Positions 16,347 through 45,827 of a stretch of 64,000 bases of DNA are shown here, in pieces. Made by a program: the position numbers and the translations under genes. Location: contig JAUXTQ010000017.1 in assembly GCA_030678995.1 (NCBI GenBank), positions 62,001-126,000 on the forward strand, written 5' to 3'. A model generated the notes under the pieces. That model made no database searches. It saw nothing but the letters and a program-made list of their open reading frames with translations, and was not told the DNA's origin. The DNA comes from Caulobacter sp. GTDB taxonomy: Bacteria; Pseudomonadota; Alphaproteobacteria; Caulobacterales; Caulobacteraceae. The number at the start of each line of letters is the position of its first letter. Position 1 is the stretch's first letter.

Positions 16347-16390
16347 GGGGACAGGTTAAGCTGTCCCTTGGGACAGCTTAACCTGTCCCC
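16347..16390 (+). repeat. 21-bp perfect hairpin, REP-like, GACAGGTTAAGC variant
   Basis: GGGGACAGGTTAAGCTGTCCC is followed by TT and then its exact reverse complement. Each arm is itself partly palindromic (GGGACAG...CTGTCCC). It lies between the fliJ stop and the xylanase start, so it can terminate fliIJ transcription and also lies in the xylanase leader. Confidence 0.85.
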
Positions 16391-19329: not shown

Positions 19330-19354
19330 GGGGACACGTACCCAAGGGGGTACA
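19330..19354 (-). repeat. left part of a REP-like hairpin split by the IS element
   Basis: GGGGACACGTACCC followed by AAGGGGGTACA is the left 25 bases of a hairpin whose last 7 bases (TGTCCCC) lie at 20732-20738 beyond the IS. Joining the two gives a standard 32-base hairpin of the GTACC subfamily with the same single mismatch as its relatives. Confidence 0.85.
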
Positions 19355-19417
19355 TGTAGTGCGCCCCTGGAATGAGACGGTGTAAATAGGGGACAGTTCT
19401 TCGAGGAGAGAGGAACG

Positions 19418-19804
19418 ATGTCTCGAAGAGTGATTGATCTGGCTTTGAAGCGGGCTGTGGTGGCGCGTGTGGAGGCGGGGGAGAAGGTGTTGACGCTCAG
19501 TCGCGAGCTGGGTGTGCACCGTCAGGTGATTTACAAGTGGCTGTATGGGTCGCGGGCTGGAGAGCTTGGAGTTCGGGGTCGGGGCCGTCCGACGAGGGTC
19601 GAGGCTCTGGGGCGTCAGGCGCGTCTTGAACGGGCCGATCCGTTGGCGGCGGCCGAACGTCGGATTGCGGATCTGGAACGCAAGGTTGGCCAGCAAGCGG
19701 TTGAACTGGATTTTTTTCAAGGAGCCTTGCGGCGTATCAAGGCGTCGCGCCGGCCGAACGACGGGCCTGGCGCGACGGGGTCTTCGCCCAGATCGAAGCG
19801 ATGA
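19418..19804 (+). CDS. IS3-family transposase OrfA
   Basis: 128 residues. The N-terminal helix-turn-helix (LALKRAVVARVEAGEKVLTL, then RELGVHRQVIYKWLYG) and the C-terminal leucine-zipper region (AERRIADLERKVGQQAVELD) are typical of OrfA. It ends 4 bases inside orfB, giving an ATGA overlap. In this family OrfAB is normally made by programmed frameshifting; an A/T-rich stretch (ATTTTTTTC) near 19709 is a possible slip site. Confidence 0.88.
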   Translation: MSRRVIDLALKRAVVARVEAGEKVLTLSRELGVHRQVIYKWLYGSRAGELGVRGRGRPTRVEALGRQARLERADPLAAAERRIADLERKVGQQAVELDFFQGALRRIKASRRPNDGPGATGSSPRSKR

Positions 19805-20694
19805 CCGGTCCGCAAGGCCAGGGGGCGGTGATTGAACAGCTGTGCGCGGCGGCGAAGGTCAGCCGGGCGAGCTACTACCGTGGCTGGGGCGAGAGGGAGA
19901 TGGCGCTGGAGGAGATGGCGCTGCGCGACGCCATCCATGAGGTTTGCCTGGAGCCGGATCATCGCTTCTACGGCTATCGCCGGGTGACGGCGGTGCTTGG
20001 GCGCCGGGGCTGGTTCGTCAACGCCAAGCGGGTCAGGCGGCTGATGGGCGCGGACAACCTGCTGGCCCTGCGTCGCAAGGCCTATGTTCCGGCCACGACC
20101 AACTCCAGCCATGGGCTGAAGGTCTATCCCAATCTGGCCGGCAGGATGCAGCCCCTGGCCCCGAACCGGCTGTGGGTGGCTGATATCACCTACATCCGGC
20201 TGGACCGGGACTTCGTCTATCTGGCGGTGGTGCTGGACGCCTTCAGCCGCCGGGTTGTGGGCTGGGCCCTGGCCGATCACCTGGGGGCGAGCCTGGCCAT
20301 CGAGGCCCTGGCTCTGGCCCTGGCCGACCGCCGACCGGCCTTCGGAGCTCTGGTTCATCACTCCGATCGCGGCGTGCAGTACGCCTGCGCCGACTATGCC
20401 CGCGCCCTGGAGGCGGTCGGGGCCATCCCCAGCATGAGCCGCGGCGGATGTCCCTACGACAACGCCAAGGCCGAGCGGTTCATGAGGACCCTCAAGGCCG
20501 AGGAGGTCGATGGCGCGGGCTATCGCGACCTGGAGCACGCAAGGGCCGAGATCGGAAACTTCATCGAGCAGGTCTACAACAAGCGCCGGCTCCACTCAGC
20601 GCTGGACTATCTGTCGCCCATGGAGTTCGAAAACCAATCGTCATGGGACGCCGTACGGCGTCCCATGACGTCAACAGCAGCGAACTGTACCTGA
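19801..20694 (+). CDS. IS3-family transposase OrfB (DDE integrase)
   Basis: 297 residues. HTH_21 region HRFYGYRRVTAVLGRRGWFV is followed by an rve integrase core with the three catalytic acids: D in RLWVADITYIR, D in LVHHSDRGVQY, and E in CPYDNAKAERFMRTLK. It catalyses strand transfer of the element. The protein is full length. Confidence 0.93.
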   Translation: MTGPQGQGAVIEQLCAAAKVSRASYYRGWGEREMALEEMALRDAIHEVCLEPDHRFYGYRRVTAVLGRRGWFVNAKRVRRLMGADNLLALRRKAYVPATTNSSHGLKVYPNLAGRMQPLAPNRLWVADITYIRLDRDFVYLAVVLDAFSRRVVGWALADHLGASLAIEALALALADRRPAFGALVHHSDRGVQYACADYARALEAVGAIPSMSRGGCPYDNAKAERFMRTLKAEEVDGAGYRDLEHARAEIGNFIEQVYNKRRLHSALDYLSPMEFENQSSWDAVRRPMTSTAANCT

Positions 20695-20741
20695 TTTTAT
20701 CTGTCTCACCTCAGGGGCGCACTACAGTACATGTCCCCTGA

Positions 20742-29107: not shown

Positions 29108-29201
29108 GGGGACATGCACTTCAGTGCGTGTCCCCAGCCGCTTCGAATGCTCACGATCACCGCCAAAGCTGCGGGGGACACGCACTGAAGTGCATGTCCC
29201 C
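29108..29201. repeat. REPIN-like inverted pair, GCACTTCAGTGC subfamily
   Basis: Hairpin 1 (29108-29135) reads GGGGACATGCAC, TTCA, GTGCGTGTCCCC with one T-G mismatch at the eighth pair. Hairpin 2 (29174-29201) is its exact reverse complement in orientation, GGGGACACGCAC...GTGCATGTCCCC. A 38-base spacer separates them. The second ends 15 bases before the quinone reductase start. Confidence 0.9.
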
Positions 29202-30190: not shown

Positions 30191-30218
30191 GGGGACATGC
30201 ACTTCAGTGCGTGTCCCC
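30191..30218 (+). repeat. single REP-like hairpin, GCACTTCAGTGC subfamily
   Basis: Identical to the first hairpin at 29108 (GGGGACATGCAC...GTGCGTGTCCCC) with the same T-G mismatch. It lies between the quinone reductase stop and the start of the LLM oxidoreductase, where it would form part of the mRNA leader. Confidence 0.9.
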
Positions 30219-32092: not shown

Positions 32093-32169
32093 GGGACATG
32101 TACCGCCTTCGGTACGTGTCCCCGTCAGGCGCGGATCGGGGACACGTACCGAAGGCGGTACATGTCCCC
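32093..32169. repeat. REPIN-like inverted pair, GTACC subfamily
   Basis: Hairpin 1 (32093-32123) is GGGACATGTACC, GCCTTC, GGTACGTGTCCC with a T-G mismatch at the same position as in the GCAC subfamily. Hairpin 2 (32138-32169) is its reverse complement, GGGGACACGTACC...GGTACATGTCCCC. The spacer is 14 bases. The pair ends 3 bases from the MATE stop codon. Confidence 0.9.
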
Positions 32170-36792: not shown

Positions 36793-36868
36793 GGGGACAG
36801 ACACCTTCGGGTGTCTGTCCCTCAACACACTTACCGAATGGGACAGACACCTGCAGGTGTCTGTCCCC
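36793..36868. repeat. REP-like hairpin pair, GACAGACACC subfamily
   Basis: GGGGACAGACACC...GGTGTCTGTCCC occurs twice (36793-36821 and 36840-36868), with loops TTCG and TGCA and 18 bases between. It lies in the short gap between the FadJ-like and acyl-CoA synthetase genes. Confidence 0.88.
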
Positions 36869-42392: not shown

Positions 42393-42467
42393 GGGGACAT
42401 GCACTTCAGTGCGTGTCCCCAAGCGGGAAGCGGATGGATGGGGACACGCACTGAAGTGCATGTCCCC
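42393..42467. repeat. REPIN-like inverted pair, GCACTTCAGTGC subfamily
   Basis: Hairpin 1 (42393-42420) GGGGACATGCAC...GTGCGTGTCCCC and hairpin 2 (42440-42467) GGGGACACGCAC...GTGCATGTCCCC are sequence-identical to the pair at 29108-29201, with a 19-base spacer. The second ends 11 bases before the next start codon. Confidence 0.9.
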
Positions 42468-44788: not shown

Positions 44789-44855
44789 GGGGACATGTAC
44801 CGTAATGGGGGACACACACTCATTTGCTCGCAAATGAGTGTGTGTCCCCCATTAC
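44789..44855. repeat. truncated REP hairpin fused to a 26-bp perfect palindrome
   Basis: GGGGACATGTACC (left arm of the GTACC subfamily) is followed directly by a new inverted repeat at 44802-44855. That repeat's arms are 26 bases, perfect, with a two-base loop. It includes the GGGGGACACACACTCATTTG word. It ends a 3' gap after the dehydrogenase gene and can act as terminator. Confidence 0.85.
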
Positions 44856-45742: not shown

Positions 45743-45827
45743 GGGGACATGTACCGCCTTCGGTACGTGTCCCCTAAGCCCGCCGCTCGATTTTAGGGGA
45801 CACGTACCTTCGGTACGTGTCCTCTAA
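45743..45827. repeat. REP-like hairpin pair, GTACC subfamily
   Basis: Hairpin 1 (45743-45774) is GGGGACATGTACC...GGTACGTGTCCCC with the T-G mismatch. Hairpin 2 (45793-45827) is TTAGGGGACACGTACC, TTC, GGTACGTGTCCTCTAA, with the T-G pair restored to C-G and one new mismatch near the base. Its right arm contains the TAG stop codon of the deaminase gene. Confidence 0.88.

Follow-up and report, generated by a model that had tools for sequence, protein, structure and literature searches.

Several insertion sequences (IS) of the IS3 family target repetitive extragenic palindromic (REP) sequences; the accessible passages of PMC1525189 name IS1397, ISKpn1 and ISPsy8 and cite experiments that ascribe the specificity of IS1397 and ISKpn1 to the transposase. 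These two insert in REP or palindromic unit (PU) hairpins of E. coli and Klebsiella, and ISPsy8 and other type-1 REP-associated IS insert repeatedly at one REP position (Tobes and Pareja, 2006; PMC1525189, same passages). In those passages no link is drawn between the REP sequence and the IS's own ends, and the REP association of Shigella IS2 is given as 2/37. IS30 inserts next to its own repeats and into nearly palindromic hot spots (PMC9333248). Here we describe an IS3-family element lying within a REP hairpin of Caulobacter sp. (GenBank assembly GCA_030678995.1, contig JAUXTQ010000017.1, positions 62,001 to 126,000; this whole stretch of 64,000 nucleotides is called the window), together with its relatives in other genomes, and propose that such elements probably find their targets through a motif shared with their own ends. 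To our knowledge, how REP-targeting IS find REPs is still without explanation. The window element resembles IS1397 and ISKpn1 in being an IS3-family element inserted in a REP hairpin but differs in host, REP family and transposase; a search for IS1397 itself in E. coli genomes, with IS150 as the homologous probe, yielded nothing beyond IS150 and generic IS3 annotations. With ISPsy8 and the other type-1 REP IS, as far as the accessible passages describe them, the present elements share repeated insertion at one position, but their target duplication is 4-5 bp long and lies in the stem.

The window element is 1372 bp long and ends in tips that match perfectly over 15 bp (TGTAGTGCGCCCCTG, at 19355 and 20726), from which imperfect inverted repeats reach ~45 bp inward. 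The 5-bp target duplication GTACA stands on both sides of it (19350-19354 and 20727-20731), and the site is intergenic. Deleting the IS and one GTACA gives the empty site GGGGACACGTACCCAAGGGGGTACATGTCCCC (19330-19354 joined to 20732-20738), with a 13-bp stem that contains a single C.A mismatch and is closed by an AAGG loop. An earlier note on this DNA had claimed both that the IS ends and the duplication lie inside a hairpin and that removing the IS restores it, and both claims are borne out. DNA folding of the empty site gives -12.6 kcal/mol (z -4.15), a value equalled by 1 of 200 shuffles, and an equally good stem was found at 0 of 1619 background positions in the flanking 1.8 kb (p = 0.0006, by an ungapped stem score, computed over all relatives, which handles gapped palindromes too coarsely and was relied on for the window site and clear cases alone).

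Within the window, GGGGACANGTACCC has 13 matches with at most 2 mismatches against 1.5 expected (e.g., 32138-32169 and 45743-45774). The genome was surveyed by sampled regions, in which 18 intact GGGGACA hairpins in 256 kb make up 0.27% of the DNA; over the sampled genomes the share is 0.19-0.27%. The single Y1_Tnp gene of the genome, coding for a REP-associated tyrosine transposase (RAYT; L332, G000:C50:59889-60215), has GGGGACAGCTTACT / CAGGGGACAGCTTACT hairpins on each side. Given that they form a multi-copy class and flank the sole RAYT gene, the GGGGACA hairpins are RAYT-associated REP sequences. Of 56 GGGGACA copies in this genome, 35 lie within hairpins, so that hairpin and motif are inseparable as a target there. 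The window also contains GGGGACA hairpins from further subfamilies, among them GGGGACATGCACTTCAGTGCGTGTCCCC (16347-16390, 29108-29135, 29174-29201, 30191-30218, 36793-36868, 42393-42467 and 44789-44849), some of them paired in opposite orientation in the manner of bacterial interspersed mosaic elements (BIMEs).

The earlier note had suggested that the IS may recognize such hairpins and that its other copies be mapped. No second full copy was found in its own genome, and the mapping was therefore moved to relatives. Genome collections, plasmids and sampled genomes supplied the loci in which their ends and duplications were identified. Where OrfB is at least 69% identical, six of seven copies lie within palindromic repeats and the seventh adjoins one TGTCCCC arm. 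In two genomes of the same genus, both copies of G249 are in GGGGACA hairpins (GGGGACACGAAC...) at the equivalent position (one viewed from the left side only), and both copies of G248 share a position in the GGTGACAGTC hairpin (GGTGACAGT[CACG]CTGCGCGAGACAGTCACC), an unoccupied member of this repeat family being present at L198. G008 has the right arm only, a TTAT duplication followed by CCTGTCCCC, and the two copies in a Rhodospirillaceae genome are both in CCGGRATGACGA palindromes. All five copies in G447 (61% identity) sit at one point of a palindrome, after GTGAACA or GTTGAACA. This palindrome has ~8 copies in 6.5 Mb, carries the IS at loci L134 and L136-L139 and is unoccupied at C1:776937, C1:777081 and C2:953176; by our own arithmetic, five chance landings within the same ~450 bp out of 6.5 Mb would have a probability on the order of 1e-21. 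Judged by the same-position rule for type-1 REP-targeting IS, the window genome contributes 1 copy, G249 2/2, G248 2/2 and G447 5/5. Target specificity is established for G447 because all five copies occupy one point of a ~8-copy palindrome, it is highly probable for both G249 and G248, and for the window copy we infer it. No target preference was seen in many distant relatives, many acidobacterial ones having neither hairpin nor motif match; viral contigs yielded mostly remote relatives and the search of Rhizobiaceae genomes few new copies. The suggestion of hairpin recognition is thus supported in part: it survives in the nearest relatives, but some others lie at the motif outside hairpins and many distant ones show neither feature. 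Separately, L123 (Mesorhizobium), L079 (Rhizobium mongolense) and L160 (viral contig) have a common target type, TAGGTGACGTTTYGTACCGGA..ATRG.

Inward of each IS tip by 29-45 nt (about 34-42 nt) lies a motif that tends to recur beside the insertion; in the window it is AGGGGACA. By lineage, end motif and target are GGGGACA in the window, G249 and G008, GGTGACA in G248, GCGGACA in S. medicae and other rhizobial plasmids, and AGCACA in the Nitrospira group. Comparison of the inner IS end with its own target flank at 36 sites, not all of them independent, gave a Fisher p of 5e-13 against the same-locus background. Permuting targets between lineages, which avoids base-composition and locus effects, gave p = 1e-4 for 31 lineages and p = 6e-5 for 21 collapsed lineages, on the same 36-46 sites that gave rise to the hypothesis; only a follow-up set of three copies is independent. 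The covariation is confined to IS positions 24-50 and to one orientation and is strongest in the flanks abutting the duplication, with no signal in the opposite orientation or strand (p = 0.38-0.48) or for IS regions 0-32 and 40-68. It declines away from the duplication save for an isolated p = 0.005 at a flank offset of 56 nt, perhaps due to tandem arrays. Four lineages (Caulobacterales GGGGACA, G248, rhizobia and the Nitrospira group) place their own target first among the 21 and two more place it third, the signal resting mainly on the top four.

For the follow-up, four more rhizobial plasmid copies were fetched after the hypothesis had been formed, and ends were identifiable in three. Two of these read CGGACA, then 4 nt (the usual duplication length), then the IS tip, and the third has CGGACT; the random-position rate of CGGACA that close in such loci is 0.96% (0.0096). 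The E. adhaerens target AAATCGCGGACAGT agrees over 14 nt with the inner end of the IS itself. The layout is motif, 0-2 bp, duplication and IS, the target motif and the nearer IS-end copy being in tandem. The motif classes also differ in the putative recognition helix of OrfA (HRQ.IYKW with GGGGACA, ARQLIYKW with GGTGACA, RQRLYEW with CGCGGACA and SRRLLYTW with GCACAC), which would fit a shared motif.

In the rhizobial and Nitrospira copies, the motif matches lie in direct-repeat arrays, not hairpins. Rhizobial copies L142, L143, L152, L144-L150, L342 and L345 border arrays of direct repeats 22-23 bp long (TTTCANTAAATCGCGGACA; CCGGACNNNATTCCGA), which resemble the ends of another element, perhaps an IS21-like one. 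The Nitrospira/Nitrosospira-group copies L021, L022, L028, L051 and L063 all adjoin the repeated sequence TGTGCTNNNTTTGTGCT. Two copies of a GTGACAG-ended relative in G1001 (L340 and L341) are in or beside tandem TTCACCA/TTGGTGA repeats, possibly another target of the end-motif type.

The window harbors an IS3-family element that has inserted into a RAYT-type REP hairpin. We consider it probable that this element is target-selective and found the hairpin by a motif, common to the IS ends and the REP arms, read by the helix-turn-helix (HTH) of OrfA, other lineages following their own end motif. On this proposal, the HTH of OrfA or the fusion protein OrfAB would bind the motif in the inner part of the IS ends as well as in the arms of the REP, a single reading head serving for the ends and for holding the target; the circular intermediate would then join 0-2 bp 3' of the target motif with duplication of 4-5 bp, and a lineage with a different end motif would go to targets bearing that motif, as the covariation shows for about 4-6 of 21 lineages. 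The ends of IS2 consist of an outer 11-bp cleavage domain and an inner protein-binding domain (PMC3299598), and those of IS911 are bound by an N-terminal HTH fragment of OrfAB, mutations in the HTH disrupting the binding (PMC7780238). By analogy, the covarying region of the present elements corresponds to the inner, protein-binding part of the IS2 ends. Since some relatives are found at the motif in non-hairpin sequence, what is recognized is probably the motif of the arm and not the hairpin itself. Targeted insertion next to inverted repeats is reportedly also a property of IS911, going by the title of work cited in PMC2909936 and PMC7780238. Both IS30 and IS911 resemble the present elements to some extent, in that they insert beside their own end sequence (IS30 also in its nearly palindromic hot spots), but here what recurs is a subterminal motif of ~7-14 nt instead of an entire inverted repeat, and the copy at the target runs in tandem with the one in the IS end.

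Several observations weigh against this proposal. The window IS is itself a single copy, about 15 of the 21 lineages show no match between end motif and target, a gap of 2 separates motif and duplication in most copies from Caulobacterales and Nitrospira against 0 in the window and rhizobia, and most ends visible from one side only lack the motif on that side, which we counted as unhelpful, not as support. The two Rhodospirillaceae and five G447 copies lack a good motif match although they lie in palindromic repeats, and structure may therefore matter as well. The transposase might indeed target a hairpin or cruciform of any sequence, host REPs differing and the motif match being incidental, and a constant position is hit in palindromes as unrelated as the GGGGACA, GGTGACAGTC, TCCGGGATGACGA and TGGAAC...GTTCCA types. 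Structure alone, however, does not predict the sharp position and orientation of the covariation, nor does it suit the motif-bearing direct-repeat arrays, and the ungapped stem score is significant at part of the sites only; we regard this explanation as unlikely.

If insertion were near random and copies in intergenic repeats merely persisted as harmless, the intergenic window site and the many distant relatives without preference would be expected, but such survivorship is strongly disfavored by the single nucleotide position of all G447 copies in so rare a repeat, and the position-sharing copies of G249 and G248 lie in REP hairpins that form 0.2-0.3% of the DNA, which makes it very improbable. 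The presence of one Y1_Tnp gene between GGGGACAGCTTACT hairpins would allow the IS to exploit REPs nicked or opened by the REP-specific transposase, yet such assistance explains neither why end motifs track targets nor the rhizobial and Nitrospira targets, which do not look like REPs, and we give it hardly any credence. The similar 45-nt halves flanking all G447 copies might suggest that the hairpin halves form the outside of some larger mobile element; as the IS ends there are identical between copies while the halves diverge, target duplications mark the inner boundary and the repeat also occurs unoccupied, this is exceedingly improbable.

The element fits the usual description of IS3-family ends (TG...CA inverted repeats with a 3-5 bp duplication) and has OrfA and OrfB overlapping in the -1 frame, the OrfB frame staying open over 329 aa (Table 1). 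Pfam matches to rve (1e-20), HTH_21 and HTH_Tnp_1 point to a DDE core in OrfB and an N-terminal HTH in OrfA, and the NCBIfam model transpos_IS3 scores 284 bits (1.8e-84; cut-off 160). Among the reference proteins compared (IS2, IS150 and IS3), OrfB is 36% identical to IS3 InsF, 31% to IS150 InsK and 28% to IS2 InsD, and the IS2 TnpB model gives 44.8 bits against a cut-off of 597. Membership of the IS2 subgroup was dropped on these grounds, and the "IS2-like" label of the earlier note is not supported; from its sequence the element is assigned to the IS3 family with the subgroup left unnamed. It shares with IS2 the family, the two open reading frames and ends of two domains, but differs in its OrfB.

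Table 1. Features of the interrupted hairpin and of the inserted element, in window coordinates.
Feature	Position	Strand	Remark
Left part of split REP hairpin, GGGGACACGTACCCAAGGGGGTACA	19330..19354	.	contains left target duplication 19350-19354
IS3-family insertion sequence, 1372 bp, tips TGTAGTGCGCCCCTG/CAGGGGCGCACTACA	19355..20726	+	
Left inverted repeat, made up of perfect 15-bp tip, GAGAC block and inner part	19355..19399	+	two ends aligned
Left-end subterminal motif AGGGGACA, same as REP arm	19388..19395	+	within target-covarying IS region, 24-50 nt from tip
OrfA, 128 aa, helix-turn-helix (HTH_Tnp_1)	19418..19804	+	
T7 run in OrfA/OrfB overlap, plausible -1 frameshift/slippage site giving OrfAB	19711..19717	+	inferred from sequence
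OrfB, 297 aa, HTH_21 and rve (DDE) transposase	19801..20694	+	
32-nt palindrome at OrfB 3' end, terminator-like	20639..20670	.	IS self-match 1285-1316, opposite strand
Right inverted repeat, inner motif AGGTACAG	20682..20726	-	
Right GTACA duplication (20727-20731) and right hairpin arm TGTCCCC (20732-20738)	20727..20738	.	

REP targeting by IS3 elements is already known, and the covariation of end motif and target is, as far as we found, the addition made here; no description of it was found in the open-access literature searched, a scope that excludes most subscription papers. There is perhaps an even chance that this clade of IS3 elements uses one DNA-binding specificity for its own ends and its targets, the two co-evolving, with each lineage parasitizing host repeats that carry its end motif (RAYT-associated REPs or mobile-element ends) and REP targeting being a special case. 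A motif common to IS ends and target makes the finding of REPs directly testable and, if it is shared, targets would be predictable from end sequences. It also suggests a route by which elements may settle in harmless repeats, the window insertion being one mobile element that exploits the repeats of another, the RAYT.
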